From: Chelatococcus asaccharovorans
Lineage (GTDB): Bacteria; Pseudomonadota; Alphaproteobacteria; Rhizobiales; Beijerinckiaceae
Length of the DNA: 64,000 nucleotides
Direction of reading: 5' to 3'
Assembly (NCBI RefSeq): GCF_003201475.1
Contig: NZ_QJJK01000004.1
Coordinates: 132,631-196,630 of the forward strand
Shown here: piece by piece, positions 8,516 to 23,177 of the stretch
Numbering within the stretch: position 1 is the stretch's first letter
How the letters are laid out: the number at the start of each line of letters is the position of its first letter
Notes under the pieces: model-generated
What the model was told of the DNA's origin: nothing
Databases searched by the model: none
The model's input: only the letters and a program-made list of their open reading frames with translations
Program-made: the position numbers and the translations under genes

Positions 8516-8592
<77 letters not shown>

Positions 8593-8741: not shown

Positions 8742-8910
8742 CTAGTGGAGTGAATTTGACATTTGAGTCCCGCCTGACATGAAGCTCCCGATCAAATGTC
8801 AAATTCAAAAGCTCCACTAGAACCAATAACTTGCTAGTGGTTCTCGTGGCTCCGACATTTGCTCCGAGGCTCGTATCAGGCGGATGCAAATGTCGAAGCC
8901 GAACCACTAG
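8742..8910 (+). repeat. 169-bp two-hairpin element, copy 1
   Basis: Two long palindromes that each start and end with CTAG are joined by the 13-bp linker AACCAATAACTTG. Hairpin 1 (8742-8820) has outer arms CTAGTGGAG/CTCCACTAG and an inner 15-bp stem GAATTTGACATTTGA/TCAAATGTCAAATTC. Hairpin 2 (8834-8910) has CTAGTGGTTC and GACATTTGC arms. CCGCCTGA in loop 1 (8770-8777) is complementary to TCAGGCGG in loop 2 (8876-8883). Copies 2 and 3 have exactly the same total and sub-element lengths. Open frames crossing it are spurious. Confidence 0.93.
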
Positions 8911-8924
8911 CGATACCAACAGCC

Positions 8925-9758
8925 ATGCCACTTACAGACGTTGCCATCTGCCGAATCAAGCCATCCCAACAGCCGAAAAAGATCTCAGACGGTGAGGGGC
9001 TGCACCTATTTGTTGCAGCATCAGGCGCTAAGTTGTGGCGAATGTCCTATCGCTATATGGGCAAACAGAACCTGCTGAGTTTCGGAGCATATCCGACTGT
9101 GAGCTTGGCCGATGCGCGGCGGGCACGCGACGCGGCAAAGCAGGTTCTGGCAAAAGGCGATGATCCAGGTGGGCCGCCTTGACCGAGCCAAAAGCCTTGC
9201 GCGGCGCTCTTGCGGGCAATCGATGGCTTCGAGGGGCAGGCCACGACGACAGCCGCGTTGAAGCTCTTGGCGCTGCTCTTTCCTCGGCCCGGTGAGTTGA
9301 GAGCGGCCCATTGGTCCGCGTTCAATCTGGACGAGGGGCTGTGGACCGTTCTGGAAGCGCGGATGAAGATGCGCCGTCCCCATCGGGTACCGCTGCCCAA
9401 GCAGGCGGTCGCTATTCTCAAAGACGTGCAGCAACTCACGGGTCATGGCACTCTTGTCTTTCCCTCGATCCGCTCGGTCCTCTCTCCCATGTCGGAAAAC
9501 ACATTGAATGCGGCGCTACGCCGTTTGGGCTTCACCAAGGATGAGATGACCTCGCACGGGTTCCGCGCGAGTGCCAGTTCCATGCTCAACGAGAGCGGCT
9601 TCTGGCATCCGGACGCCATTGAGCGGCAGCCGGCCCATGTGGAGGAAAACAGCGTCCGGCGCGCCTATGCGCGCGGTGAGCATTGGGACGAGCGCGTTCG
9701 GATGATGGCTTGGTGGGCCGACCGTCTGGATGAGCTGCGCGCGGGTAACCTGAAGTGA
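8925..9758 (+). pseudogene. Tyrosine integrase (DUF4102/P4-type), internally deleted
   Basis: The first part (8925-9182) is the arm-type DNA-binding domain: SDGEGLHLFVAASGAKLW ... FGAYPTVSLADARRARD. It ends at an in-frame TGA (9180). The same frame continues with an intact catalytic domain (from LLRAIDGFEGQ), which keeps Arg in LLFPRPGELR, the HGFRASAS box, His in QPAHVEENSVR and the nucleophile Tyr in RRAYARGEH. The core-binding domain between them, about 140 residues by family comparison, is missing. The product is therefore broken. Together with the adjacent tRNA-Arg this marks the end of a former genomic island. The start codon lies 15 bp after repeat copy 1. Confidence 0.85.
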
Positions 9759-10130
9759 TCGTGCTCTGCTCCAGGTGCAACTGAACGTGACTCTGAAAGC
9801 CGCTTCTAAATGGCAGAGATGGGGCCGACAGCAGTCTGGCAGCTTTCGGCTGCAGCCGTGTTCATAGCTGCCATTCCGCAGCCGACCCCTTCCCGGTCGT
9901 TCAGGTCGGGTTTGTCCGCGGCCTGAAACCCGCCATTCGAGAGGCATCCGGATTTCTGCTCAAACGGGGCCGATTCCTGACAGTCCGCTTCATGGTAGTA
10001 TCCGGCGATAGCTGCCATCCAGCAGCTAACGCAAAAGGACATTACCTGCCTAGTTGCCGCGGCCTGATTGTCTCTAGTATCTTAGTTGGCATACTCGGTA
10101 GATTTAGTTTTTCTCCGCGGTCTCGAAAAG
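9759..10130. other. Non-coding remnant between integrase and repeat copy 2
   Basis: 372 bp with no supported gene. Short frames on both strands resemble nothing I recognise. I looked for a second copy of the tRNA 3' end (TTCGAATCCCTTCCGGGAC) that would mark attR and did not see one here. Confidence 0.5.
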
Positions 10131-10299
10131 CTAGTGGAGCGAATTTGACATTTGAGTCCCGTCTCACATCAAGCTCCAGATCAAATGTCAAATTCAAAAG
10201 CTCCACTAGAACCAATAACTTGCTAGTGGTTCTCTTGACTCCGACATTTGCTCCGAGGCCCGTATCAGGCGGATGCAAATGTCGGAGTCGAACCACTAG
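10131..10299 (+). repeat. 169-bp two-hairpin element, copy 2
   Basis: Same architecture and orientation as copy 1: hairpin 1 at 10131-10209, linker AACCAATAACTTG at 10210-10222, hairpin 2 at 10223-10299. Stem 2 reads GACTCCGACATTTGC/GCAAATGTCGGAGTC, where copy 1 has GGCTCC and AAGCC: one base pair is changed on both sides. The loop-loop match is weaker here (CCGTCTCA in loop 1). The last CTAG (10296-10299) provides the TAG stop codon of the enoyl-CoA hydratase gene on the minus strand. Confidence 0.93.
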
Positions 10300-11030
10300 C
10301 GACCAACAAAGACCGGCGCGCGTTTTTCGAGGAAGGCATTTTCCCCCTCCTTCTTGTCCGCGCTTTGCCAGATGGCTGCGATTTCGATCTGCGCAGCCAA
10401 CATCAGCTCCGAAGGGCTTTTCGGAAGCGTGCGTGACACGAAGCGCTTGATGGTGCGCAGAACCATCGGCGCCATCTGGGAAAGCTCCTGACCCATTTCC
10501 AGGGCGGTGTCGATATGCTTGCCCTTTTCGACGACCTGGTTGATCAGGCCCGCTTCCAGGGCGCGGTCGGCCGATATCGGCTTGCCCATCATCAGCAGTT
10601 CCATCGCGATCTTGTGTGGAATTCGTGCCGCCAACGCCGCTGCGACGCCGCCGGTGACACCGATCCGCGCTTCCGGATAGGAGAAGCGCGCGGTGCTGTC
10701 GGCCACGCAGAGGTCGCTCATGACCATCGTCATCAGGGCACCGCCGATGCACCAGCCGTGAACCGCGCAGATGATCGGCTTCTCGGATTCGAAGCCGACC
10801 GTCGGCATGATCCGCCATATCTCCGGCGGATCTGAGATGTCGGCGCCGGCGGAGAACGCCTTCTCCCCTGCCCCGGCCAGCACGGCGACCCGCATGTCGG
10901 ACGCCTCGAAATCCTTGAACGCCGCCTGGAGATCAAGCGCCGCTTGCCGATCGACGGCATTGGACCGCTCGGGACGATTGATGGTGATGAGCCTGACCTT
11001 GCCGTGGTCGGTGATTTCGATCTTGGACAT
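10296..11030 (-). CDS. Enoyl-CoA hydratase/isomerase family protein
   Basis: A 244-residue crotonase-fold protein. RPERSNAVDRQAALDL, AFSAGADISD (the oxyanion loop around residues 58-67) and VHGWCIGGALM (90-100) are family signatures. Glu120 in YPEARIGVTGG fits the second catalytic glutamate of hydratases, but the first (in the GGxxE position) is replaced, so hydratase activity is not certain. ATG 11030 begins MSKIEITDHG. It is the last gene of the iclR-BKACE-crotonase unit. Its stop codon lies inside the terminal CTAG of repeat copy 2. Confidence 0.85.
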   Translation of the reverse strand: MSKIEITDHGKVRLITINRPERSNAVDRQAALDLQAAFKDFEASDMRVAVLAGAGEKAFSAGADISDPPEIWRIMPTVGFESEKPIICAVHGWCIGGALMTMVMSDLCVADSTARFSYPEARIGVTGGVAAALAARIPHKIAMELLMMGKPISADRALEAGLINQVVEKGKHIDTALEMGQELSQMAPMVLRTIKRFVSRTLPKSPSELMLAAQIEIAAIWQSADKKEGENAFLEKRAPVFVGR

Positions 11031-11079
11031 GTTCTCGATCCTTGGGATTTGCGATGCTGCGCCGCAAGTCGTGCTTAAG

Positions 11080-11958
11080 TCAGCCGATCTGCAGGATGCG
11101 GCGGGCCTCGTCGGGCGTGGCGGGCAACAGGTCGAGGCTCTCCAGGATCGCCACGGCGCGACGCACCAGCGGCGCATTGCCAACGGAAAGCTCGCCCTTG
11201 CGAAGGTAGAGATTGTCCTCGAGGCCCACGCGGACATGCCCGCCCAGCAGCGCCGTCTGCGCAACCATCGGAAACTGGTTGCGGCCGATTGCGAAGGCCG
11301 ACCAGGTGCTGCCCACCGGCAGCATCGACTTCATCTGCAAAAGGGCCTCGACGGTCGCCGGCGCGCCCCACGGAATGCCCATGCAGAGCTGGAACAGCGG
11401 ATTGGCCGGCAGTTCGCCGCGGCTCACCATGTCCGCGGCCTGCCAGACATGGCCGAGGTCGAACGCCTCGATCTCCGGCTTTACGCCGGCCTGGCGGATC
11501 GCGGCAGCCATCGGACGCAGATGCGAGCCCAGATTGACGATGGCCGCCTCGCCGAAATTCATCGTCGCGACGTCGAGGCTGCAGATGTCGGGCTTCAGCT
11601 CGACGATATGCTGGGTGCGGAACTCCGGCGTGCGGGGGATCGATCCGTCCTGGCTCTTGGTCGGGTCGTCCACGCGCGGGAAGCTTCGCGCGCCCGGGCC
11701 GGTGGTCAGATTGATCAGCATATCGACCTTGCTGGCACGGATGCGTTCGACGACCTCGCGGTAGAGGCCAAGCTCCATTGCCGGCTCGCCGGTCTTGGGA
11801 TCGCGGACGTGGATGTGCACCACCGCCGCGCCGGCCTCGGCCGCCTGGATCGCATCCGCCGCGATCTGCTCCGGCGTGATCGGCACGTGCTTGTGTCCGC
11901 TCTCGTTCAGGCGCGCGCCACCAGTCAGCGCGCAGGTAATGATTACGCTGCGTGTCAT
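11080..11958 (-). CDS. BKACE family 3-keto acid cleavage enzyme (DUF849)
   Basis: A 292-residue TIM-barrel, Zn-dependent enzyme of the beta-keto acid cleavage family. The prototype, 3-keto-5-aminohexanoate cleavage enzyme (Kce), condenses a beta-keto acid with acetyl-CoA to give acetoacetate and a new acyl-CoA. The metal-binding HIHVRD is at residues 48-53, after VIITCALTGG, and the C-terminal GLEDNLYLRKGEL is also diagnostic. The substrate of this member is unknown; BKACE subfamilies differ widely. It sits between an IclR regulator and a crotonase, consistent with a CoA-linked catabolic pathway that yields a 3-keto acid. Confidence 0.9.
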   Translation of the reverse strand: MTRSVIITCALTGGARLNESGHKHVPITPEQIAADAIQAAEAGAAVVHIHVRDPKTGEPAMELGLYREVVERIRASKVDMLINLTTGPGARSFPRVDDPTKSQDGSIPRTPEFRTQHIVELKPDICSLDVATMNFGEAAIVNLGSHLRPMAAAIRQAGVKPEIEAFDLGHVWQAADMVSRGELPANPLFQLCMGIPWGAPATVEALLQMKSMLPVGSTWSAFAIGRNQFPMVAQTALLGGHVRVGLEDNLYLRKGELSVGNAPLVRRAVAILESLDLLPATPDEARRILQIG

Positions 11959-11992
11959 CTCGTATCCATTGATTGTGGAGGGTGCTGATGCC

Positions 11993-12871
11993 TCAGTTGC
12001 GGTTTTGACTCGTGGGCATTCGGGTCATGTTACCGTAGTTCTCCGCGATTTCCGCCTCGATGGCGCGCGCGGTGACCTGCAACGGCTCGGCCAGCCGCTG
12101 CGCAACTTCGCTTTCCGGCACGGCGCTGCGAAAATATCCGAGCGCCAGGCAGCCGAGGACGAGACCGTCATTGCGGATCGCGACGGAGATCGTCTCCGTG
12201 CTGGAGTGTTCGCGCGATCTCACCTTTCGCGCATATCCCTGGTTGCGTATGTCATCGATCACACGCCCGATCTGCCGCTTGCTTTCGGCGCGCTTCGACG
12301 GGGTGATGCGCGCGAGCTGGGCGTCGATCAGCGCCTCACGCTCGTAGTCGGGGCAGAATGCGAGATAGGCACGGCCCATCGCGCTGGTGAACAGATCCAG
12401 CCGCATGCGCAGATGGGTCATCGGCATCGCCCACGGGCTGTAGCGTGCCGTGGTGAACTGCAAGCGCATGAACTGGCCCTCGAGCATGCCGACCCCGACG
12501 CCCCACTTGATCCGCTGGGTCAGTTCCAATGCGTAGGGATGGGCAGCCTCGATGACCATGGGCGCGCCGAAGTATCCGTCGCTCAAATTCTGTACGTTCG
12601 CCGTAATGCGGTAGCCGCCGAACGCTTTGTCGCGGGTCACGTAGCCGGCCGTGATAAGGGTCTCGAGCATGCGCACCACCGTCGGCTTCGCGATACCCGT
12701 GATCTTGTGCAACTCGGTGACCGTGGCGACACGCAGCATGTTGAGATGCTTAAGCACCTCCAGCGCCCGCAGAACGGATTCGACCGGCGCGTAGGAATGT
12801 GCCCCGTCGGCGACGAGGGTGGCACCGCTCGACGGCGTCGGACAATCCTTTACGGGAAATATAGCGTTCAT
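11993..12871 (-). CDS. IclR family transcriptional regulator
   Basis: A 292-residue regulator. An N-terminal winged helix (about residues 28-90; ATVTELHKITGIAKPTVVRMLETL) is followed by an IclR effector domain (ARYSPWAMPMTHLRMRLDLF ... GLVLGCLALGYFR). The family typically represses or activates adjacent catabolic operons in response to a small carboxylic or aromatic acid. It is 34 bp upstream of the BKACE gene on the same strand and probably controls it. A 17-bp perfect palindrome about 210 bp upstream of its start is a candidate operator. Residues 1-25 are poorly conserved, so a later start is possible. Confidence 0.9.
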   Translation of the reverse strand: MNAIFPVKDCPTPSSGATLVADGAHSYAPVESVLRALEVLKHLNMLRVATVTELHKITGIAKPTVVRMLETLITAGYVTRDKAFGGYRITANVQNLSDGYFGAPMVIEAAHPYALELTQRIKWGVGVGMLEGQFMRLQFTTARYSPWAMPMTHLRMRLDLFTSAMGRAYLAFCPDYEREALIDAQLARITPSKRAESKRQIGRVIDDIRNQGYARKVRSREHSSTETISVAIRNDGLVLGCLALGYFRSAVPESEVAQRLAEPLQVTARAIEAEIAENYGNMTRMPTSQNRN

Positions 12872-13079
12872 TGCCGTCTTCTCCCTCCGTCGCGCCGCAG
12901 CTTCTTCTTACCGGGTCCGCATTGTGGAAACGCGGCACGGACGTCAGCGACCGCCTGCTCCAGCTTCGCCCGGTGTCCTCTGTCGGACGGAGCGTCTTCT
13001 GTCGGGCGGCACACCTCCATCCCGGAGCTGCGGCGACCCTATATCTCCGCATCTCAGCGATAAACCTTTAAGCCCGCTG

Positions 13080-13096
13080 ATTTCAACTGTTGAAAT
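13080..13096. promoter_or_regulatory. 17-bp palindrome, candidate IclR operator
   Basis: ATTTCAACTGTTGAAAT is a perfect inverted repeat (8-bp arms, one central base). The TTTCA...TGAAA form resembles operators of IclR-family members such as KdgR and IclR. It lies upstream of the iclR-type gene and overlaps the stop codon of the sulfurtransferase gene at 13083-13085, so it could act on the former. Confidence 0.4.
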
Positions 13097-13988
13097 GCCC
13101 CCTCTCAAAGCCTGAGCTGCCCGTCTCAACAAGCAGCTCGGGAAATCCTTCCCTTCCCCAGTCCGCCCAGGATCCATCATAGACCGCCACCTCGGCAATG
13201 CCGGCCAGTTCGGCCGCAAGCGCGACGATGCACGCCGTCACACCCGATCCGCAGGTGGCGATAACCGGTCGGGCGAGATCGACGCCCGCGGCACCAAATT
13301 CAGCGCGTAGGTCTTCGACCGGCCGGTAGCGTCCGTCGGCGAGAAGCCGTCCGAAAGGCAGGTTCCTCGCGCCCGGCATGTGGCCGGGGCGCAGGCCGGG
13401 GCGCGGTTCGGGATCGCGCCCTTCAAAACGGCCGGCCGAACGGGCATCCACGATCTGCGGGTTGGCGGCCCTCACCGCTGCAAGGACATCGTCGGCGCCG
13501 GCGATCCGGGAACGGTCCGGCTGTGCGGTGAAGTTGCCGCGAAACAGGGGCAGATCGGCTCCCGATTCCAAGGGGTACCCGGCGCCGACCCATGCATCAA
13601 GCCCTCCGTCGAGCACGGCTACGTCGGCGTGCCCCATCGCCTTGAACATCCACCACGCCCGCGGCGCGGCGAATATGCCGGCCGTGTCGTAGATCACGAC
13701 GCGACTGTCGTCATTGATGCCGCAGCGGCGAACATGCGACTGAAACTCCGCGCGCGGCGGCATCATGTGCGGCAGATCGCTGCTGCGATCGGTAACGACC
13801 TCGTCGAAATCGAAACGGCGCGCCCCGGGAATGCGCGAGGCATGGAAGTCATCCTGTGTCGAGCGCTTCTCCGAGGGCAAGTACCAGCTAGCGTCGAGGA
13901 TGACGTCCCGGGCCGAGCGGCTCGCATGCAGCGCGGCCGCGTCGATGAGAGGCCAGGTCTTGTCGGTCGATGACATGCCGGAATCCAT
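13083..13988 (-). CDS. 3-mercaptopyruvate-type sulfurtransferase (two rhodanese domains)
   Basis: A 301-residue protein with tandem rhodanese domains: the first about residues 14-140, inactive, and the second about 165-290 with the active-site loop CGSGVTA (Cys246). CGSGVTA is the loop typical of 3-mercaptopyruvate sulfurtransferase (SseA), which moves sulfur from mercaptopyruvate to a thiophilic acceptor; thiosulfate rhodaneses usually have CRxGx[R/T]. The start is 4 bp after the upstream crotonase stop; MSSTDK 12 bp further in is an alternative start. Its place as the last gene of a transporter-oxidoreductase-dehydrogenase operon suggests the operon's substrate carries sulfur. Confidence 0.88.
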   Translation of the reverse strand: MDSGMSSTDKTWPLIDAAALHASRSARDVILDASWYLPSEKRSTQDDFHASRIPGARRFDFDEVVTDRSSDLPHMMPPRAEFQSHVRRCGINDDSRVVIYDTAGIFAAPRAWWMFKAMGHADVAVLDGGLDAWVGAGYPLESGADLPLFRGNFTAQPDRSRIAGADDVLAAVRAANPQIVDARSAGRFEGRDPEPRPGLRPGHMPGARNLPFGRLLADGRYRPVEDLRAEFGAAGVDLARPVIATCGSGVTACIVALAAELAGIAEVAVYDGSWADWGREGFPELLVETGSSGFERGHFNS

Positions 13989-13992
13989 GATG

Positions 13993-14814
13993 TCAGAGGC
14001 CCGTGAAGGCGGGCGAGCGCTTCTCGAGGAAATGCCGGACGCCTTCCTGGAAATCCTCGCTTCGTAGGCTCGCGATCATTTCGCGGTTCGCCTGCGTCAC
14101 GACATCCTGAAGGTTCTGGAAGCGTGCATCCCAGAGCTGGCGCTTCATGACCCTGACCGAGCGGGGCGACGCCAGCGAAGCCAGTTCGCGCGCATAGTCG
14201 AGGGTTCGGGCCATCAACTCGTCCGGCGGATAGAGCCTGTCGACCAGACCCGCCGCCTTCGCCTCGCCAGCATCGAACCGCCGCGCCGAAAACAGAAGGT
14301 CGGCCGTCACGCCCGGCCCTGCGGTTTGCAGCATGAGCCACGCGATGCCGTGTTCGGCAATCAGCCCGCGTCGCGAGAAGGCGGTGGAGAACACTGCCTT
14401 TTCCGAAGCGAACCGCATGTCCGATGCCAGCGCGAACACGATACCGAGCCCAGCGGCAGCTCCGTTGATGGCGGAAATCACCGGATTCGCCAAAGCCGGG
14501 AAATAGATGTAGCGGCTTTGGAAATCCGCCCGGATCGCCGTATCGAAGGGGCGCATCTTGGCCGGTTCGTAGATGTCCTCCGGCGCGAGGCCCTCGAGCT
14601 CGGCCATGTCCATGCCGGCGCAGAACGCCCGTCCCTCGCCAGTCAGGACGATCACGCGCACCTGCGGCTGTGCGTCGGCCTGCCTCATGGCTGCGTAGAG
14701 CTCGCGCTCCATGACGGCGGTAACGCCGTTCATCCTGTCCGGGCGATCCAGTGAGATCGTTGCAACGCCAGCCTCGACCTGCAGCTTTACCTGTGTGAAT
14801 TCCATCGCGCTCAT
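13993..14814 (-). CDS. Enoyl-CoA hydratase/isomerase family protein
   Basis: A 273-residue crotonase-fold protein with ISLDRPDRMNGVT, RAFCAGMDMAELEG (oxyanion loop), INGAAAGLGIVFALASD and the FSRRGLIAEHG segment. The two classical hydratase glutamates are not both present, so it may be a hydratase, isomerase or hydrolase of an unusual acyl-CoA. It overlaps the upstream aldehyde dehydrogenase stop by 4 bp (ATGA), a sign of translational coupling, and is followed 4 bp later by the sulfurtransferase. Confidence 0.85.
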   Translation of the reverse strand: MSAMEFTQVKLQVEAGVATISLDRPDRMNGVTAVMERELYAAMRQADAQPQVRVIVLTGEGRAFCAGMDMAELEGLAPEDIYEPAKMRPFDTAIRADFQSRYIYFPALANPVISAINGAAAGLGIVFALASDMRFASEKAVFSTAFSRRGLIAEHGIAWLMLQTAGPGVTADLLFSARRFDAGEAKAAGLVDRLYPPDELMARTLDYARELASLASPRSVRVMKRQLWDARFQNLQDVVTQANREMIASLRSEDFQEGVRHFLEKRSPAFTGL

Positions 14815-16244
14815 CCCTTGCGCTGCGGCTGCTGCAGCGACCGATATTCGAGAAAATCATCAAGGCCGAAACGGCCGTTCTCGCGGCCCACTCCGGACAT
14901 TCCGAAGCCACCAAAAGGCGCGTCGAGGTTGAAAGGACCGCCATTGATGTCGACCTGGCCGGCGCGTATCCGCCGCGCCACGGAGAGCGATAACGCGTCG
15001 TCGGGGCCCCATACTGCGCCGGCAAGGCCGTAGGGCGTCCCGTTGGCGATCGCGACGGCTTCGTCGATGTCCCGATAGGGGATGACGCAGAGCACGGGCC
15101 CGAAGATTTCTTCCTGCGCGATGGCCGAAGCGGGGTCAACGTCGGCGAAAACGGTCGGCGAGACGAAATAGCCGGCCTCGTTTCCGCCTGGCTGCTCGGC
15201 GCCACCGCAGACGAGCCGCGCACCCGATTCGATCCCCTTGCTGATGTAGCGGCGCACCCGCTCCTGCTGATCCTTCGATACCAGGGGACCCATGCGGCTG
15301 TTCGGGTCCAGAGGATCGCCGACCGTTATTCGCTGCACGGCCTCCGAGATCAGCGCCAAGACCTCTTCCTGCTGCGCGGCGGGAACGACGAACCGGGTCA
15401 GCGCGGAACAGGTCTGGCCGGAATTCAGGAAACAGCTCCCCACCGTGGACCTCACGGCGGCGGCCATATCAGCTCCGGGCAACAGAACGGAGGCCGACTT
15501 TCCACCGAGTTCGAGCGTGACCCTCTTCACGGCCGACAGCGCCTGCGCACCGATCTGGCGCCCGACCGCGGTGGAGCCGGTGAACGAGATCACATCCGCT
15601 TCGGGCGATGCGACAAGGGCTGCGCCGACATCGGCACCGGCGCCGATCACCATGTTGAACACACCGGCCGGCAACTGCGCCGCCTCGATCGCCTCGGCCA
15701 GGAGGATTGCGGCGGATGGAGCCATTTCCGAAGGCTTCAGGACGACCGTGCATCCGGCGAGCAACGCGGGCGCGACCTTGCCGGTGATCTGATGCAGCGG
15801 GTAGTTCCACGGTGTGATGCAAATCGCGACGCCTGCCGCGACCCGTTCGACGAGCGAGTTGCCGATCGTCTCGGTCCACTGATAGTCCGCCGCCGCCTTT
15901 GCGAGCCGCCGCCATGCCAGTATCGGCGCGGCGACCTGGATCCGCTCGGACAGTTTCAGCGGCATGCCGACCTCACGGCTGACGGCGGCCGCGATTTCCG
16001 CTTGCCGCGCCTCGAGCTCATCGGCGATCCGGCCGAGGTAGCCGGCGCGGACCGCAGGATCGAGGTCCGACCAGCCGGCGAAGGCGGCGCGCCCTGCCAT
16101 GCACGCACGATCGGCTTCGGGAACGCCGGCAAGTGGCACTTCCAGCCACGGCACGCCGGTCGCGGAGTTGGTCACGGTAAACGAGGTCGGCTTATCGGGC
16201 GCCACCCATTGTCCGTTGATGAAGCAGGAACGTGCGATCTGCAT
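14811..16244 (-). CDS. NAD(P)-dependent aldehyde dehydrogenase
   Basis: A 477-residue aldehyde dehydrogenase that oxidises an aldehyde to the acid with NAD(P)+. The catalytic residues are visible: Asn147 in ITPWNYPL, Glu245 in LELGGKS and nucleophile Cys279 in NSGQTCSA; the cofactor loop FTGSTAVGRQ is at 221-230. The C-terminal PFGGFGMSGVGRENG is typical. Substrate specificity cannot be read from sequence. It lies between the molybdopterin oxidoreductase and a crotonase on the same strand. Confidence 0.93.
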   Translation of the reverse strand: MQIARSCFINGQWVAPDKPTSFTVTNSATGVPWLEVPLAGVPEADRACMAGRAAFAGWSDLDPAVRAGYLGRIADELEARQAEIAAAVSREVGMPLKLSERIQVAAPILAWRRLAKAAADYQWTETIGNSLVERVAAGVAICITPWNYPLHQITGKVAPALLAGCTVVLKPSEMAPSAAILLAEAIEAAQLPAGVFNMVIGAGADVGAALVASPEADVISFTGSTAVGRQIGAQALSAVKRVTLELGGKSASVLLPGADMAAAVRSTVGSCFLNSGQTCSALTRFVVPAAQQEEVLALISEAVQRITVGDPLDPNSRMGPLVSKDQQERVRRYISKGIESGARLVCGGAEQPGGNEAGYFVSPTVFADVDPASAIAQEEIFGPVLCVIPYRDIDEAVAIANGTPYGLAGAVWGPDDALSLSVARRIRAGQVDINGGPFNLDAPFGGFGMSGVGRENGRFGLDDFLEYRSLQQPQRKG

Positions 16245-16423
16245 GGCAAGCCTTCGGCATTGAGTGTCACGGGCTAGAGGACCGCGACCTTCGTGTCCTG
16301 GAAGGCGAAGCCGGCCGTCTGAGCGTCCAAACTATCGTGAGGCAGCATCGAGCGGCCATGCTCTATGTGCCGGGGTTTCACGACCTGAAACCCGCAGCAG
16401 GCCAGCCGGCTCGTGCCTCCGTG

Positions 16424-18718
16424 TTACGAAGCCCGGGCCTGAATCTCGGGAAGATCGAAGGCCGTTACGGCGGAGCCGCCCTCGAAACGCTCCACCTCGA
16501 CCAGACAGGTCTGGGCCGAAGATCCCTGCGCAAGGCTGGATGTTCCGCGATCGAGCGTCAGTACGTTGGGGTTCCCATGCTTTTCCAGCGGCACTTCCAG
16601 GGAGCGATCCGGATCGTACCACGCGCCCGTCGGGAGAACGACGACACCCGGCATGACGCCGTCATCGATGGCTGCTGCGGCAAGGCAGCTCCCGCGATCG
16701 TTCCAGAGCCGGATGACGTCTCCGCCAGAAATGCCACGACGCGCCGCATCGGCCGGGTTGATGCGGGCAACCTCCCTGCCCGCCACCTTGCCGTCGACGC
16801 TGTAGGCGGCATGATCGAGCTGGCTGTGCAGGCGACGCGACGGCTGGTTTGAGATCAGGTGAAGCGGGAAACGTGCCGCCTGCGCGGCGCCCAGCCACTC
16901 GTCCGGTTCGAGCCAGACGGCGTGCCCCGGGCAGTCCTGATATCCGAACCCCGCCACGGTGGCCGAGAAGAGTTCGATTTTGCCCGACGGTGTGGGCAGC
17001 GCGTGGGCCTTGGGATCGGCCCTGAATTCGCCGAGCATCACCGGAGGTTCCGGCATGTCGCCCAGATCGATGAGGCCGGCATCCCAGAACTCCTCGAAAG
17101 ATGGCAACGCCATGCCGAGCTTGCGAGCCTGCGCGACGGCCTCGGCATAGAGCCATTGCAGCCAGCCGGTCTCGTCCCGCCCCTCTGTGAAGGCGGGGCC
17201 GACATTCATGCGCGCGGCAAGTTGAGCAAAGATGTCGTAGTCGTCCCGCGCCTGGGCATGCGGCTCCGCCACCTTCTTCATGGCAACCAGATGCCCCTCG
17301 CGCCCGGCATAGCCCAGGTCGTTGCGCTCCAGCGTGGTCGTCGCCGGCAGCACGATGTCGGCCATCCGCGCGACCGGATTCCAGTACTGCTCATGCACGA
17401 TCACCGCTTCCGGCATGGCCCATGCGGCGGCCAGCGTGTTCAGATCCTGATGATGATGGAAGGGATTGCCACCTGCCCAGTAGACCAGCTTGATGTCGGG
17501 ATAGCGGTAGACGTTGCCGTTATAGCTGAACGACTGGCCGGGCTTCGAGAGAAGGTCGGCGATGCGCGCCACCGGAATGAAATCGCTGACCGCGTTCGCG
17601 AGCTGGGGGAAGGTTGGCCCCGTCATGCGCAGCTTCGAGGTGCCGACCGAGTTCACAGCGCCGTAGCCGACGCCAAAGCCGCCGCCCGGTGTGCCGATCT
17701 GGCCAATCATCGCGGCAAGGGTGATCAGCGCCCAATATGGCTGTTCGCCGTGTCTTGCGCGCTGCAGCGACCAGGCGACGTTCATCATCGTCCGGGACGA
17801 GACGATCTCCGTCGCGAGCGTCTCGATCCTGTCGGCTGCAACCCCGGTGATCCCCGCGGCCCACTCCGCATCCTTGACGACACCGTCGGCGCGGCCGGTC
17901 AGATAGGTGCTCACCGTGTCGAAGCCGACGCAATAGCGGTCGAGAAACCCGGAGTCGTGACGTCCGGACTTGAGCATACAGTGCATCAGGCCGAGCATGA
18001 GCGCGGTGTCGGTGTTCGGTCGGATCTGAATCCATTCGAACGGTCCGCCGACATCGAGATCGGCACGCAGTGGTCCGATCAGGATGAAGCGCGTTCCCGC
18101 TCGCCGCATGGCCTCCAACCCCTCGCGCACATGATGGCGCATGGCGCCGCCTGCGGTGACCTGCGCGTTTTTCAGGGGCACGCCGCCGAACCCGACGAAT
18201 AGCTCGCAATGTTCAGCCAGCTGGTCCCAACTCGTATGCTGGGCCATCAGCGTGTCGAGCGGCGCTACGATGTGCGGCAGCACGACATTGGCCGCCGCGT
18301 GGCTGTAGGAGTCCCGGTGGCGGACATACCCGCCGATACAGTTCAAGAACCGATGGATCTGCCCCTGCGCATGGTGGAAACGTCCCGCGCTCGACCATCC
18401 GTATGATCCGCCGAAGATGGCACTGTTGCCGTGGCGGCCGATGACGCGCTCCAGCTCCGAAGCGACGAGCGCGATGGCTTCGTCCCACTCAACCTCCACG
18501 AACGGCTCCTTGCCGCGCAGGTGGCCTTCGGTCCGCCGGCCTTCCAGGAAGCTGCGCCGCACCGCGGGGCGCTTCACGCGCAGCCGGGTGACCGTCGGCG
18601 ACAGTTGGTCGAGGCCGATCGGCGACGGGTCGGGATCCTTCGCCGATGCGACAAGCCGGGGGCCGTCCACGTCCTGCACGACTTCATAGAGGCCCCAGTG
18701 GCTCAGCGTATGATGCAT
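16424..18718 (-). CDS. BisC/TorA-like molybdopterin oxidoreductase
   Basis: A 764-residue DMSO-reductase-family enzyme binding bis-MGD molybdenum. It starts directly in the molybdopterin fold (MHHTLSHWGLYEVV) and lacks the N-terminal Cys motif for a [4Fe-4S] cluster, as in biotin sulfoxide reductase BisC, TMAO reductase TorA and DMSO reductase. FGGSYGWSSAGRFHHAQGQ carries the serine that ligates Mo in that branch. No twin-arginine signal is seen, so it should be cytoplasmic, like BisC. The likely reaction is reduction of an S-oxide or N-oxide, or the reverse oxidation. An ALDH follows 179 bp downstream and the TTT permease lies upstream on the same strand. Confidence 0.87.
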   Translation of the reverse strand: MHHTLSHWGLYEVVQDVDGPRLVASAKDPDPSPIGLDQLSPTVTRLRVKRPAVRRSFLEGRRTEGHLRGKEPFVEVEWDEAIALVASELERVIGRHGNSAIFGGSYGWSSAGRFHHAQGQIHRFLNCIGGYVRHRDSYSHAAANVVLPHIVAPLDTLMAQHTSWDQLAEHCELFVGFGGVPLKNAQVTAGGAMRHHVREGLEAMRRAGTRFILIGPLRADLDVGGPFEWIQIRPNTDTALMLGLMHCMLKSGRHDSGFLDRYCVGFDTVSTYLTGRADGVVKDAEWAAGITGVAADRIETLATEIVSSRTMMNVAWSLQRARHGEQPYWALITLAAMIGQIGTPGGGFGVGYGAVNSVGTSKLRMTGPTFPQLANAVSDFIPVARIADLLSKPGQSFSYNGNVYRYPDIKLVYWAGGNPFHHHQDLNTLAAAWAMPEAVIVHEQYWNPVARMADIVLPATTTLERNDLGYAGREGHLVAMKKVAEPHAQARDDYDIFAQLAARMNVGPAFTEGRDETGWLQWLYAEAVAQARKLGMALPSFEEFWDAGLIDLGDMPEPPVMLGEFRADPKAHALPTPSGKIELFSATVAGFGYQDCPGHAVWLEPDEWLGAAQAARFPLHLISNQPSRRLHSQLDHAAYSVDGKVAGREVARINPADAARRGISGGDVIRLWNDRGSCLAAAAIDDGVMPGVVVLPTGAWYDPDRSLEVPLEKHGNPNVLTLDRGTSSLAQGSSAQTCLVEVERFEGGSAVTAFDLPEIQARAS

Positions 18719-18820
18719 TGATCCGCCCTCTGTTGGATCCGTCGCGTCGAAGATGCCGCCCAGCGCACCGGCGCGCTCCGGGTGTCAACGCGAAATCGAT
18801 GTGACGCGGCGCTTTGTGCC

Positions 18821-20326
18821 CTATTCGTCCTCGACGAAGACTTCCTTGCGGCGCTTACGGATGAACGGAAGAAGGATCACCACGAGCAAGGCCGCCGCCA
18901 CGGCGAGCAGCGTCGCACTGAGCGGTCGCTGGATCAGCACGGTCGCATCACCATCGGCGAGGATCATCGCCCGGCGCAGATACTCCTCCAGAAGCGGCCC
19001 GAGCACGAAACCCAGCAGCATCGGAGCGGGTTCGCAGTCCAGCTTGCCAAGCACGTACCCAGCCGCGCCGAAGATCGCCATCAGATACAGGTCGAACGCC
19101 GAGTTGCCGACGCTGTAGACGCCGATCATGGAGAACCCGAGGATGGTCGGGAAAAGGAAGTGTGGCCGAATCTTGAGGAGCTTCAGCCAGAGGCCGATGA
19201 GCGGCAGGTTCAGGATGACCAGTATCAGGTTTCCGACCCACATCGAGGCGATGACGCCCCAGAACAGTTTCGGCTGCTCGGTGATCAGATTTGGGCCCGG
19301 GATGATGCCCTGGAGAATGAGCGCGCCCACCATCAACGCCATAATCGGGTTGGACGGAATGCCCAGCGTCAGCATGGGAATGAACGACGTCTGCGCCCCC
19401 GCATTGTTGGCCGATTCCGGTCCGGCGACGCCGGCCATCGCGCCATGGCCGAAGCGCTCGGGAGTGCGCGACAGCTTCTTTTCCATGGCATACGACGTGA
19501 ACGCGGACAGGAGAGCCCCACCACCTGGAAGCACGCCGAGCACCGAGCCAAGCAGCGTGCCGCGAACGACCGGCGCGGTCGCCTCCTTCAGGTCGGCGAG
19601 GCTGGGCAGGCGATTGTTGACCGGGATCACCGACACCGGCGCATCGCTTTCGTTCTCGATCCCGCGCAGAATCTCGCCCAAGGCGTAAATGCCCGCGCCG
19701 AACGCGACGATGGGGATGCCGTCCGCCAGGTCCAGCGTGCCGAGCGTGAAGCGCATGGCACCCGTATAGGAATCGGTACCCACGCAGCCCAGAAGGAGAC
19801 CCAGCAGGATCATGGCCAGCCCCTTGAGCACCGAGCCGTGCGCCAGTGCGATAGAGGCGACGAGGCCGAGAACCATCAGCGCGAAATAGTCGGCCGGGCT
19901 GAAGCTGAGCGCCAGCGAGGTGAGCGGCTTGGCAAAGATGGCGATCGCTAAGGTCGCCACAGTCCCCGCAAAAAATGATCCGAGCGCGGCGACGGCGAGC
20001 GCTGTGCCTGCACGTCCCTGACGCGCCATCTGGTAGCCATCGATTGCGGTGACGGCGGAGGTCGCCTCACCTGGAAGATTGATCAGGATCGCGGTGGTGG
20101 AGCCGCCGTACTGCGCTCCGTAATAGATGCCGGCCAGCATGATCAGCGCCGCTTCCGGCGATACGCCGAAGGTTACGGGCAGTAGGATGGCGATGGTGCC
20201 GAGCGGCCCGATCCCCGGAAGCACGCCGATGGCGGTGCCAAGGAAGCAGCCGATGAAGCAGAACAGAAGATTGTAGGGCAGCAGGGCGACGGAAAAGCCG
20301 AGCCCCAGGTTCTGGATGAAGTCCAT
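18821..20326 (-). CDS. tctA: Tripartite tricarboxylate transporter large permease (TctA family)
   Basis: A 501-residue protein with about 11-12 transmembrane segments, the large membrane subunit of a TTT system that imports carboxylates with a periplasmic Bug-type receptor. The family signatures are visible: GVLPGIGPLGTIAILLPVT, YYGAQYGGSTTAILINLPGE and, mid-protein, VLPGGGALLSAFTSYAMEKK. The order tctC-tctB-tctA on the minus strand is a complete transporter. The BisC-like gene follows 102 bp downstream, linking uptake to the enzymes. Confidence 0.94.
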   Translation of the reverse strand: MDFIQNLGLGFSVALLPYNLLFCFIGCFLGTAIGVLPGIGPLGTIAILLPVTFGVSPEAALIMLAGIYYGAQYGGSTTAILINLPGEATSAVTAIDGYQMARQGRAGTALAVAALGSFFAGTVATLAIAIFAKPLTSLALSFSPADYFALMVLGLVASIALAHGSVLKGLAMILLGLLLGCVGTDSYTGAMRFTLGTLDLADGIPIVAFGAGIYALGEILRGIENESDAPVSVIPVNNRLPSLADLKEATAPVVRGTLLGSVLGVLPGGGALLSAFTSYAMEKKLSRTPERFGHGAMAGVAGPESANNAGAQTSFIPMLTLGIPSNPIMALMVGALILQGIIPGPNLITEQPKLFWGVIASMWVGNLILVILNLPLIGLWLKLLKIRPHFLFPTILGFSMIGVYSVGNSAFDLYLMAIFGAAGYVLGKLDCEPAPMLLGFVLGPLLEEYLRRAMILADGDATVLIQRPLSATLLAVAAALLVVILLPFIRKRRKEVFVEDE

Positions 20327-20335
20327 GATACAGCC

Positions 20336-20806
20336 CTAACCGGCTATGAGCCAGCCCCACAGAGGAAGCGGCAGATTGAGGAGATAGATGAAAACCAGCA
20401 CGCAGAAGGCGCTGAAGCCTGCGCTGAGCAGAATGGATTCACCGATCTTGGACCGGATGCTGGCCTGCGTCGAAAACAGGACCGACAGAAAGACGGCGAA
20501 GAACAACCCCAGTGGATCGATGCTGAGGGAAAAGACGATGGGTGCGCCGAGGACCAGCGCCACCGCCCTGAAGGGCGCCACTTTGAGGGGCTCCTCTTGC
20601 GCGCTCGACTGGCCAAAAACGACAGCCAGAATGCTGATCGCGCCCAGGCTGATCGACAGCAAGAGCGGAAAGAAGCCTGGACCCATATTGGCAGGCGTAC
20701 CAATCGGCAGCTTCCTCAACGTCTCGAAGGCCATCAACGCGCTGAAGCTGACAAACACTATTCCGAAGACCATGTTTCTGCGGCTTGGCCAGTAGGTAGC
20801 GAACAT
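20336..20806 (-). CDS. tctB: Tripartite tricarboxylate transporter small permease (TctB family)
   Basis: A 156-residue protein with four hydrophobic segments (for example LLSISLGAISILAVVFGQ and LLSAGFSAFCVLVFIYLL) and the GTPANMGPGFFPLL motif typical of TctB. It is the small membrane subunit of the TTT transporter and starts 200 bp downstream of tctC. The tctA start codon lies 9 bp after its stop. The TctB family is poorly conserved, so position is part of the evidence. Confidence 0.9.
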   Translation of the reverse strand: MFATYWPSRRNMVFGIVFVSFSALMAFETLRKLPIGTPANMGPGFFPLLLSISLGAISILAVVFGQSSAQEEPLKVAPFRAVALVLGAPIVFSLSIDPLGLFFAVFLSVLFSTQASIRSKIGESILLSAGFSAFCVLVFIYLLNLPLPLWGWLIAG

Positions 20807-21006
20807 ATTCTCTTCCTCGCCTTTCGATCGCCACGTGAGTTGATCCCGCGACGCTTGGCAACGCCGTCGCGTATTGGGATGGAAGGGGCGGCCCAGGAGC
20901 CCGCGGTCGTTTGCCGGACTTCGGCGAATGACCCTCCCGAGAGGACCGTCACCGCGTGACGCCTACTCCGACAACGCGCCGGGCAGGCGCCGCATGATGC
21001 TTGGGA

Positions 21007-21987
21007 TCACTGGTTCTTGATCTCGTATTTGGCGATCAGGTCGCGCCACTTGACCTCTTCGGAGACCACGACGTCGCGGAACTCCTTGGGGGTGGTCGGA
21101 TTGACCTGCTGACCGATCTTGGCAAAGGCCTGCTTGGCTTCGTCGGTATTCAGGTAGTTCACGACGGCCTTGTTCATGCGCTCGATCACCGACGGCGGCG
21201 TGCCCTTGGGCGCCATCAGGCCGGCCCAGGGCTGGGCGACGAGATCGATGCCGCTTTCCTTGAAGGTCGGCACGTTCGGCAGGTCCGCGGCCCGTTCGGC
21301 CGAGACGATAGCGAGCGGACGTATGGTTCCCGCTTCGATCTGCTTCATGTAGTTGTTGTTCAGGAAGTCCATCGACATGTCGAGGCTGCCCGACAGCATG
21401 TCGGTCACCACTTCGGAATTGCCCTTGTATGGCACCATCTTCATTTTGATGCCGGCCAGGTCGGAGAATGCAAGCTCCACCATGTGGCCGTAGGTTCCGA
21501 TGCCGCTGTTGGACACGCTGAGCTTGCCAGGGTTGGCCTTGGCGTACTCGATCATGCCCTTGAAATCCGTGAAAGGCAGGCCGGTACGAGCAACGATGAC
21601 CATCGTGGCCTTGGAGATGCCGGAGACGTACTCGAAATCCTCGAGCGGCTTGTACGGAAGGCCGGCAAAGGTATTCGTGAAGTTCGCCGCCGGGCCAGGA
21701 TAGGCGAACACGAAGGTGTAGCCGTCCGCAGGCTGCCGCGCGGCGTAACCGGTGCCGATCGCGCCGCCGGCGCCAGGGCGGTTGTCGATCAGGATCCTCT
21801 GACCGATCTCCTTCTCCACAGCGCCCATCACAATTCGCGCGATATAGTCGGAACCGGCTGCAAACGGGAAGACCGCAGTGATCGTCTTGCGGTTCGGCCA
21901 GTCTTCGGCGGAGGCCTTACCAGCCAGGCCAATCGTGCCGGCAAGCAGCAAGGCGCCTAGAGAGAGCGTTGAAACAAGTTTGCGCAT
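21007..21987 (-). CDS. tctC: TctC/Bug family periplasmic substrate-binding protein
   Basis: A 326-residue receptor of the TTT system. MRKLVSTLSLGALLLAGTIG...ASAEDWPNRK gives a Sec signal peptide with cleavage after ASA. The mature part has the Bug signatures TAVFPFAAGSDYIARIV and IDNRPGAGGAIGTGYAAR. ATG 21987 is chosen because TGGGAGGAA stands 5 nt before it; an open frame extends 18 codons upstream without such a site. It is the first gene of the minus-strand operon and is divergent from the aldolase gene, so the promoter should be in 21988-22238. Confidence 0.93.
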   Translation of the reverse strand: MRKLVSTLSLGALLLAGTIGLAGKASAEDWPNRKTITAVFPFAAGSDYIARIVMGAVEKEIGQRILIDNRPGAGGAIGTGYAARQPADGYTFVFAYPGPAANFTNTFAGLPYKPLEDFEYVSGISKATMVIVARTGLPFTDFKGMIEYAKANPGKLSVSNSGIGTYGHMVELAFSDLAGIKMKMVPYKGNSEVVTDMLSGSLDMSMDFLNNNYMKQIEAGTIRPLAIVSAERAADLPNVPTFKESGIDLVAQPWAGLMAPKGTPPSVIERMNKAVVNYLNTDEAKQAFAKIGQQVNPTTPKEFRDVVVSEEVKWRDLIAKYEIKNQ

Positions 21988-22238
21988 GAATTTCCTCCCA
22001 ATCGAGGCGGCGGGCAACGTTGCCGCATTTTTTAATGCCACCGCCGCAAGCGAGCTTACAGGCGGAAGGGGTGCATCAATACGGCAACGTCAGTCCCGTT
22101 CCAGCCCGTGAAATCGATCGCCCGGCCGGAACGGCATACGGCAGGTTGGTTTCAATCTGAGAAACCCGCCCGCAAATCCTGTTCACCCCGCCGCGCATTC
22201 GCGAATATCTTGTGCTGCCGCATGGAGGAGAAGAGAAC
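21988..22238. promoter_or_regulatory. Divergent promoter region tctC / aldolase
   Basis: 251 bp separate two divergent catabolic units and must hold both promoters. I could not pick out a convincing inverted repeat or -35/-10 pair; a CATTTTTTAATG stretch near 22027 is the only AT-rich part. Confidence 0.4.
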
Positions 22239-23012
22239 TTGGCGAAATCTGATAGATCGGAAGGGTTTCGGTCGCGATTGCTGGGCGGCGACCGGCTGAT
22301 CGGCGCGTTCATCAAGACCCCGACCAGCCACGCGACGGAAATTCTTGGCCTCGTCGGCTTCGACTTCGTCGTCATCGACGCCGAACACGCCCCGTTCGAC
22401 CGCTTGACCACGGATCAGGTTCTGCTTGCGTGCAGGGCCTTCGACATCGCGGGCGTGGTGCGGGTCTCCGAGGCGACGCCAGCGCAGATCCTGTCGGCGC
22501 TCGACTGTGGTGCGGAAGCGGTGCTGGTGCCGCATGTCGACAGCGCGGCGAAGGCCGCTGCGGTCGTTTCTGCCGGGCGCTATCGGCAGGGCGCCCGCGG
22601 CTTCTCCAACAGCCCGCGCGCCGGCGCGTATGGCGGGCGCACCATGGCCGATCACATCCAGCGGTCGGACGCCGACGTCGCACTTATCGCGATGATCGAG
22701 GACATGGCCGCGATCGACGTCTTGGACGAGATCATGGCGGTCGACGGCATCGACGGCATCTTCATCGGGCGTGGCGATCTTGCCGTCGCCATGCGCGCCG
22801 CCTCCCCGAACACGGACGAGGTCAGCGCCGCGGTGGAGAAGATCACCGCCGCCGCTCGCCGCGCCGGAAAGCCGATCATGGTGATGGTTGGCGCGGCCGC
22901 CGACGCCACGCGTTTCGCAGCCCAGGGCGCAACCGCCTTCATCGTCTCTTCCGACCAGGGGCTGATGCGCCAGGCTGCAGCGAAGGTCCTCAAGGACTTC
23001 GCCGAACTCTAG
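22239..23012 (+). CDS. HpcH/HpaI family class II aldolase
   Basis: A 257-residue TIM-barrel, metal-dependent aldolase that cleaves a 2-keto-4-hydroxy acid to pyruvate and an aldehyde. FVVIDAEHAPFD, the metal-site region VLVPHVDSAAKAAAVV, the GARGFSNSPRAGAYGG loop and MIEDMAAIDVLDEI follow the HpcH/RhmA pattern. TTG 22239 is chosen because GGAGGAGAAG stands just upstream; a GTG 27 bp earlier is possible but has no such site. The stop codon TAG (23010-23012) is part of the CTAG end of repeat copy 3. Confidence 0.88.
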   Translation: MAKSDRSEGFRSRLLGGDRLIGAFIKTPTSHATEILGLVGFDFVVIDAEHAPFDRLTTDQVLLACRAFDIAGVVRVSEATPAQILSALDCGAEAVLVPHVDSAAKAAAVVSAGRYRQGARGFSNSPRAGAYGGRTMADHIQRSDADVALIAMIEDMAAIDVLDEIMAVDGIDGIFIGRGDLAVAMRAASPNTDEVSAAVEKITAAARRAGKPIMVMVGAAADATRFAAQGATAFIVSSDQGLMRQAAAKVLKDFAEL

Positions 23013-23177
23013 TGGTTCTGCTCCGACATTTGCATCCGCCTGACACCGGCCTCGGAGCAAATGTCGGAGTCAAGAAAACCACTAGCAAGTTATTGGTTCT
23101 ATTGGAGCTTTCGAATTTGGCATTTGATCTGGAGCTTGATGTCAGGCGGGACTCAAATGTCAAATTCGCTCCTCTAG
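23009..23177 (-). repeat. 169-bp two-hairpin element, copy 3 (inverted)
   Basis: Inverted relative to copies 1 and 2: hairpin 2 at 23009-23085, linker CAAGTTATTGGTT at 23086-23098, hairpin 1 at 23099-23177, total again 169 bp. The outer arm of hairpin 1 has decayed (CTATTGGAGC against GCTCCTCTAG). The loop-loop complementarity is 10 bp here (CCGCCTGACA with TGTCAGGCGG). Its first CTAG contains the aldolase stop codon. It sits inside a plus-strand gene run, 32 bp before the next start codon. Confidence 0.93.

Follow-up and report, generated by a model that had tools for sequence, protein, structure and literature searches.

A dispersed 169-bp two-hairpin repeat of Chelatococcus asaccharovorans and other Hyphomicrobiales that may move as a folded DNA strand

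Three copies of the repeat and their structure

We analysed a 64,000-nt stretch of the Chelatococcus asaccharovorans genome (contig NZ_QJJK01000004.1, positions 132,631 to 196,630; hereafter the window), in which a 169-bp repeat composed of two hairpins occurs three times. Direct reading of the sequence confirmed the positions and the length given in the initial annotation: copy 1 at 8742-8910 and copy 2 at 10131-10299, both on the plus strand, and copy 3, inverted, on the minus strand at 23009-23177. The layout described there was likewise found in the window copies. Each consists of a 79-nt hairpin 1 (8742-8820, 10131-10209 and 23099-23177), a 13-nt linker, AACCAATAACTTG (8821-8833, 10210-10222 and 23086-23098), and a 77-nt hairpin 2 (8834-8910, 10223-10299 and 23009-23085), with CTAG-type tetranucleotides, termed feet below, at the hairpin ends. 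The inner feet and the conserved linker of copy 2 (10206-10226, plus strand) read CTAG-AACCAATAACTTG-CTAG. Copy 3 deviated slightly, starting with CTAGAGG and ending its hairpin 1 with CCAATAG. Compared as direct and inverted pairs, the window copies were 90-94% alike across 169-184 nt, and their covariance model scores were 203.1, 211.1 and 187.4 bits, respectively. Copy 2 was identical to another copy in the same genome (G000, contig C6, 123216-123384).

Copy 1 lies after a tRNA-Arg(CCT) gene (8516-8592) and is followed, between copies 1 and 2, by what appear by eye to be the remains of an integrase-like gene (8911-9757); the tRNA gene, copy 1 and the integrase remnant are perhaps a decayed island. 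The right foot of copy 2, CTAG, supplies the TAG stop of a minus-strand open reading frame at 10296-11264 (enoyl-CoA hydratase-like by eye), and a foot of copy 3 supplies the TAG stop of a frame at 22212-23012 (aldolase-like by eye).

All six hairpins in the window folded much better than dinucleotide shuffles (z from -5.0 to -8.9; for no hairpin did any of 200 shuffles fold as well), and copy 2 folded whole as DNA gave a z of -12.6. On the opposite strand, hairpin 2 is a relative of hairpin 1, and each hairpin has an unpaired 4-nt bulge that faces the linker. In copy 2 the bulges, read on the plus strand, are AAAA in hairpin 1 (10196-10199) and TCTT in hairpin 2 (10233-10236), each on the inner side. 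The partly compensated stem changes that had been pointed out earlier, GGCTCC/AAGCC in copy 1 and GACTCC/GGAGTC in copy 2, are present.

Covariation of the stems, a check that had been proposed with the initial annotation, was examined in an alignment of copies from many genera. For this comparison 68 copies, 166-171 bp long, were chosen from the order Hyphomicrobiales, and 65 were aligned after three near-duplicates were dropped. The copies are related rather than independent, and the sampling leans toward the two-hairpin structure, on which the search model was based. The two-hairpin fold was paired in 97.4% of 3249 stem cells, and two-sided changes were found in 39 of the 50 stem pairs, compared with 17.7 in shuffles (0/500 as high) and at most 19 in slid controls. 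Pairing of the repeat end to end, between the outer arms of both hairpins, was weaker than pairing within the hairpins (80.2% paired; 9 of 25 pairs two-sided; shuffles 6.0, 10/500 as high). The inner bulge was exactly 4 nt long in 55 (hairpin 1) and 54 (hairpin 2) of the 65 copies, and the retention of this bulge suggests that the hairpin shape itself is under selection. The loops were nearly fixed in length, at 23-27 nt and 22-24 nt. Among 149 copies that could be parsed, the linker was 13 nt in 115, of which 104-113 carried the same letter at each of positions 1, 2, 4, 5 and 11-13, and the commonest pattern of inner feet and linker was AANCAWWAACTTG. In three copies (L244, L266 and L295) the stem letters were very different and the plan was unchanged. 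The copy at L185:2352-2516 (same genome as the window, C2:432851-433015) has as its hairpin 2 a near-perfect palindrome that lacks the bulge, which looks like the product of a template-switch (hairpin-templated) correction.

Structural RNAs favour G.T pairs over A.C pairs. The stem mispairs of the 65 copies comprised 35 G.T and 41 A.C cells, a comparison made with no RNA control, and those of a 32-copy alignment comprised 18 and 44, where the mispairs reflect at least partly inherited changes. The nearly equal numbers in the 65 copies point to a structure of DNA rather than RNA, on either strand.

The initial annotation had also predicted a kissing fold between complementary loops. Complementarity was indeed present in copy 1 (CCGCCTGA and TCAGGCGG) and in copy 3, over 10 nt, but in copy 2, whose loop 1 is CCGTCTCA, the pairing was broken. 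Across the 65 copies, 65.8% of the loop-loop cells were paired (shuffles 61.0; 0/500 as high), and the covariation score was as high in 9/500 shuffles. However, neither two-sided pairs (6 against 6.3 in shuffles) nor pair types (16 against 18.0) were in excess. For this absence of two-sided covariation we reject kissing loops, and the complementarity of the loops follows from the inverted homology of the two hairpins, with no need for a kissing interaction.

Dispersal, insertion sites and feet

The genome that contains the window (on contig C4) measures 7.25 Mb and is split into 40 contigs. Searching it with a covariance model of 32 copies gave 148 rows, and copies were counted from the best 114 of them after removal of opposite-strand echoes. 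In these, the repeat occupied 108 distinct places at a score of at least 60 bits and 94 at a score of at least 120 bits (full-length), and 72 of the 94 were exactly 169 bp long. In a separate search of this genome, in which 40 of 116 candidates were scored, the full-length rows were 92-100% like the query, with one older copy at 74%. In a covariance-model survey of the Hyphomicrobiales, a match at E 0.001 was obtained in 70 of the 397 genomes, representing 34 of the 142 genera; seven candidates per genome were scored with strict filters, and the per-genome counts of this survey are accordingly not copy numbers. The covariance-model search of this and related genomes that the initial annotation had suggested thus showed dispersal beyond the window and across the order. 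Within the genus, a DNA search of three genomes (G001, G002 and G003) found no full copy: G001 had a single 32-nt stretch at E 1e-3, and neither G002 nor G003 gave any match. Matches were found in 10 of 72,556 named plasmid records (Martelella, Ochrobactrum, Rhizobium, Aminobacter and Agrobacterium), with at least 80% of the repeat covered in four, and there was no match in the phages searched.

In the draft genome G017, many contigs begin or finish within copies of equal score. The repeat seems to break the contigs of this assembly and is probably more abundant in it than counted, since the contig ends fall within copies. Copies with nearly equal flanks in three species of one genus (L072, L074 and L271, from G339, G352 and G245) are apparently an inherited insertion whose structure was retained. 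Another genome of the order (G026) carries a 132-133-bp relative (L011:1501-1632 and L015:1399-1531) in which hairpin 1 is long but hairpin 2 is short, at 34 nt, and the ends are of the CTAGTGG type, as in the 169-bp repeat.

Orthologous empty sites, which the initial annotation had proposed to compare, were found for copy 3 and for the copies L047, L049 and L044; L027 was left out of this set as only one of its flanks matched. The closest protein relative of a copy-flanking gene was in Oryzicola mucosus (order Hyphomicrobiales; 91%). At the site of this species that is orthologous to copy 3, the flanking blocks are contiguous, with a single TTAG in place of the CTAG found on either side of the copy in the window; the flanking frame stops at this TAG, and a few neighbouring bases differ too. 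The empty counterpart of L047 in G001 has a single CTAG. L049, filled as CTAG..CTAT, has empty counterparts with CTAT in G003 and TTAT in G002, and L044, filled as CTAG..CTAG, has CTGA in G001, G003 and G465. Filled and empty sites therefore differed by the repeat plus one tetranucleotide (about 165 bp inserted), which was usually (C/T)TAG-like and was CTGA at one of the four sites. Beyond the feet, flanking direct repeats of 2-8 nt did not exceed shuffles in 112 copies.

In the C. asaccharovorans genome, nine pairs of adjacent copies overlap by exactly 4 bp, and one more pair, in an N-containing stretch, by 36. The copy L030 lies at the inner CTAG of a copy that is older and diverged. By eye, a young 169-bp copy also splits, at the inner foot, a third two-hairpin element, which is diverged, of like plan and in reverse orientation (L029:1930-2004 and about 2170-2250, contig C7). 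CTAG is rare in the window, with 35 occurrences against 222 expected from base composition, and 11 of the 35 lie inside the three copies. The overlap of feet with gene stops was modestly above that of other frames: among 96 repeat ends, 25 were in the TAG frame and 16 and 9 in the other frames, and the corresponding numbers at other CTAG sites were 13, 16 and 8 of 94 ends.

The feet were parsed in 149 of 156 copies; in the remaining seven, one of the arms had no placement within a limit of one mismatch. The 149-copy, own-genome and pooled counts given below include copies 1 and 2 of the window a second time (as L025 copies), as well as a few rows that are misparsed (L297 and L302) or one base short (L276 and L294). 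The counts for two other genomes, G383 and G104, are based on reparsing of all of their 19 and 12 copies, respectively. The dinucleotide TA was central in both outer feet in 106 of the 149 copies. Plain target duplication would copy CTAG, and left and right outer feet should therefore agree; among the 43 copies with a non-TA centre in at least one outer foot, the left and right central dinucleotides were equal in three. Instead, the non-TA dinucleotide and the inner foot of its own hairpin were complementary in 17 of 28 cases on the left and 17 of 30 on the right. In G383, outer and inner feet were complementary over the full 4 nt at hairpin 1 in 16 of 19 copies (shuffled 5.1) and at hairpin 2 in 14 of 19 (shuffled 5.9), with 0/1000 shuffles as high in each case; examples are CTCG..CGAG (hairpin 1) and CCAG..CTGG (hairpin 2). 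Identical left and right outer feet were found in 6 of the 19 (shuffled 4.5; 212/1000 as high). Among 71 pooled copies from other genomes, there were 57 and 53 inner-outer matches at the two hairpins (shuffled 45.2 and 40.8; 0/1000 each).

A proposed mode of movement and its alternatives

We consider that the repeat may be a non-autonomous mobile element of the Hyphomicrobiales that is built of two inverted hairpins and moves as a folded single DNA strand, a reading to which we give slightly less than even odds (about 0.48). According to the cited sections of earlier work, IS200/IS605 transposases pick their sites by pairing a flanking with an internal tetranucleotide (PMC6006769, PMC8266576), and Escherichia coli TnpA_REP needs the bulge of REP, with GTAG mattering as well (PMC8266576). 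From this site pairing and bulge requirement, we infer that movement as a folded single strand is the most likely mode. A trans-acting enzyme would recognise both bulged hairpins and the linker and cut at the 4-nt feet, and the target would be chosen by pairing of its flanking tetranucleotide with the inner foot, comparable to the guide sequences of IS200/IS605. Either strand could serve, because the unit is an inverted repeat, and tandem copies with a common foot would have arisen when one copy inserted into a foot of its older neighbour. Alternatively, the element might land with mismatches, and a hairpin-templated correction would later rewrite the inner foot; both steps may act. A more far-reaching version, which we regard as doubtful, is that these are order-wide, self-guided single-strand elements that do without a Y1 transposase. 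In such elements the 4-nt inner foot of each long bulged hairpin would select the target and, if the element had landed on an imperfect one, would then be rewritten to fit it by hairpin-templated repair, the target would drift copy by copy with the architecture kept, and the mover would be a new structure-reading DNA enzyme.

Several observations weigh against movement as a folded strand guided by the inner foot. No excised or circular form of the repeat was seen. The Y1 transposase domain (PF01797, Y1_Tnp) had no match in the C. asaccharovorans genome, which is rated 100% complete; it was found in 67 of the 397 genomes of the order, and it co-occurred with the repeat in 14 (11.8 expected, p = 0.48), that is, with no association. 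The CTGA of the empty L044 site departs from a YTAG target, and the empty L049 site, with CTAT and TTAT, also fits a 2-bp duplication of TA. The foot match was weak in G104 (hairpin 1, 7/12, with 18/1000 shuffles as high; hairpin 2, 6/12, with 256/1000). Identical outer feet were also in excess among the 71 pooled copies (53 against 47.6 in shuffles; 0/1000 as high); pooling of genomes may explain this excess, but it may also reflect a duplication there. Within the genome of the window, the inner foot fully matched none of 11 non-CTAG outer feet (0/5 and 0/6). The older copies of this genome include two with a match (CTCG/CGAG at C6:468410; CGCG/CGCG and TTAG/CTAA at C1:333799) and one without (CTAG/CGCG at C13:99007). 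As the young copies lack the match, it may arise after insertion by hairpin-templated correction, and the perfected, bulge-less hairpin 2 of L185 shows that correction occurs.

The initial annotation had likened the repeat to a non-autonomous element mobilised as a structured strand and had suggested TnpA_REP as its partner. The non-autonomous, dispersed and mobile character is borne out by the 94 full-length copies and the empty sites, but the partner is not: with PF01797 missing from the C. asaccharovorans genome and unassociated with the repeat across the order, a RAYT partner was rejected. The cited section of one survey states that Alphaproteobacteria, including Rhizobiales, have no or few Y1 transposase genes per genome (PMC6006769). 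An IS630-type mover was rejected as the C. asaccharovorans genome contains no DDE_3. This genome has two DUF4096 (IS5-type) loci, and an IS5-type mover found no support at one of them, L233, where the ends seen are unlike those of the repeat; at the other locus no ends could be settled. The DUF4096 stretch at L233:1422-2252 (contig C10), which by eye lies where a reading frame ends, has the ends GGGTC..GACCC between CTA and TAC, and its target seems to resemble that of the repeat. The transposase search covered three families (Y1, DDE_3 and DUF4096). The genes between close copies in this genome are hydantoinase-, methionine aminopeptidase-, amidase- and DUF262-like, in addition to the integrase remnant of the window; no Y1 gene was seen among them by eye, no family search having been made.

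It is possible, at clearly less than even odds, that the repeat is an ordinary miniature inverted-repeat transposable element (MITE), belonging to an IS5/IS427-like or IS630-like insertion sequence with a DDE transposase and a TA duplication inside YTAR/CTAG. Its arms would be four transposase sites, and the match between arms and feet would be kept by template-switch correction. The central TA in both outer feet of most copies is consistent with this, as is L049, where empty CTAT and filled CTAG..CTAT amount to an exact TA duplication, and Brucella IS711 is reported in the cited passage to duplicate TA within YTAR (PMC2266754). The two DUF4096 loci, of which one lies between inverted ends flanked by CTA..TAC, the copies in the same genome without a foot match and the one perfected hairpin argue in the same direction. 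However, the copies that depart from TA carried an equal dinucleotide at both ends in only 3 of 43, the ends seen in L233 are unlike those of the repeat, DDE_3 is missing from the genome, and no full-length element with the ends of the repeat was seen among the matches listed. In addition, template-switch correction should erase the 4-nt bulge, yet the bulge is mostly retained.

A true REP or REPIN, mobilised by a RAYT (Y1 transposase) that has since been lost or is hidden in an assembly gap, is unlikely. The paired inverted hairpins, conserved bulge, tetranucleotide feet and high copy number all agree with it, the bulge and GTAG matter to TnpA_REP (cited section of PMC8266576), and 14 genomes of the order have both the repeat and Y1_Tnp. 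Those 14 are nevertheless close to the 11.8 expected, a genome rated 100% complete has no PF01797, and no Y1 gene was seen by eye between close copies. Moreover, the hairpins of 77-79 nt exceed the 21-65 nt given for REPs in the cited section of PMC6006769, and the GTAG tag is missing. It is very unlikely that the hairpins are kept for a role in RNA, as terminators or as protection of mRNA 3' ends, with dispersal being incidental. Such a role would account for the strong folding and for the overlap of some copies with stop codons; against it, G.T was not favoured over A.C (35 against 41, with no RNA control), Rfam had no match on the repeat, the stop-codon overlap was modest, and neither copy 1 nor copy 2 had a terminator-like site in a consensus scan.

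Relation to known repeats and significance

At the gathering threshold, the Rfam matches in the window were to tRNA only, and in four loci the repeat drew no match at E values up to 5. The literature searched, in which subscription papers were mostly outside the scope, gave no description of the 169-bp repeat, and four stem motifs searched as letters in the same literature gave no match. These results agree with the initial annotation, to which no described family with this layout was known, and the repeat looks like an undescribed family of small non-autonomous mobile elements.

By analogy, the repeat would work most like a REPIN or an IS200-type element, and it is akin in kind to REPIN, RIME and Bru-RS. 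With REP, BIME and REPIN (TnpA_REP) it has in common two inverted hairpins, a conserved bulge, a foot tetranucleotide, many copies and tandem arrays. It differs in its long hairpins (77-79 nt), its loops of about 25 nt, its near-fixed 169-bp unit and its conserved 13-nt linker. Furthermore, CTAG stands on both sides of its hairpins, whereas the GTAG tag of REP stands on one side, and the letters from the last foot base onward are usually GTGG, with GTGT, GTCA and GTAC also occurring, and not GTAG. We do not assign the repeat to REP/RAYT because the Y1 transposase is absent from this genome and unassociated with the repeat in the order. Like the ends of IS200/IS605 elements (IS608, ISDra2), the repeat has hairpin ends, no duplication beyond the foot and, in some genomes only, a match between flanking and internal tetranucleotides; unlike them, it has no TnpA, is 169 bp long and gene-free, and has its putative guide in the other foot of one long hairpin, whereas in those elements the guide tetranucleotide lies 5' of a short hairpin.

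RIME (Rhizobium-specific intergenic mosaic elements) are approximately 100 bp long. Bru-RS elements are tabulated at 103-105 bp. Both are dispersed palindromic repeats of the same order, from which the repeat is set apart by these descriptions: it is 169 bp rather than about 106 bp long, and its sequence differs from that of a 106-bp candidate in the same genome. This candidate, another dispersed element that is 106-107 bp long and ends in CTAG (L191:1027-1132, L034:2166-2271, L029:1827-1933 and L032:1898-2004), comprises two hairpins and a linker, as folded for the L191 copy, and sometimes has a CTAG in common with the 169-bp repeat. It matched 223 plasmid records, mostly of Sinorhizobium (107) and Rhizobium (73), for which the 169-bp repeat gave 0 and 1. 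It is possibly RIME-like and may belong to RIME or Bru-RS.

ERIC and Correia are TA-targeting bacterial MITEs. The repeat resembles such elements, including IS711-like ones at YTAR, in being short and non-autonomous with inverted ends and a YTAR-like target, but its non-TA outer feet are seldom equal (3/43) and its arms covary within each hairpin more than between the ends. The CGTC-tagged palindromic repeats, which like this repeat show no association with transposase genes and according to the cited passages predominate in alphaproteobacteria, have a CGTC tag, and the same paper gives REPs as 20-40 bp, as opposed to a 169-bp double hairpin with CTAG feet (PMC3733652).

The repeat could be used as a typing marker, and it seems to break contigs in draft assemblies such as G017. 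Structured palindromic repeats of bacteria are often explained by RAYT transposases. The repeat represents an abundant, order-wide family with a near-exact two-hairpin form, evidence of insertion, covariation at the level of DNA and no Y1 transposase in the C. asaccharovorans genome, and it lends itself to studying the spread of palindromic repeats, the possible action of a hairpin foot as a target guide and the enzyme that moves them.

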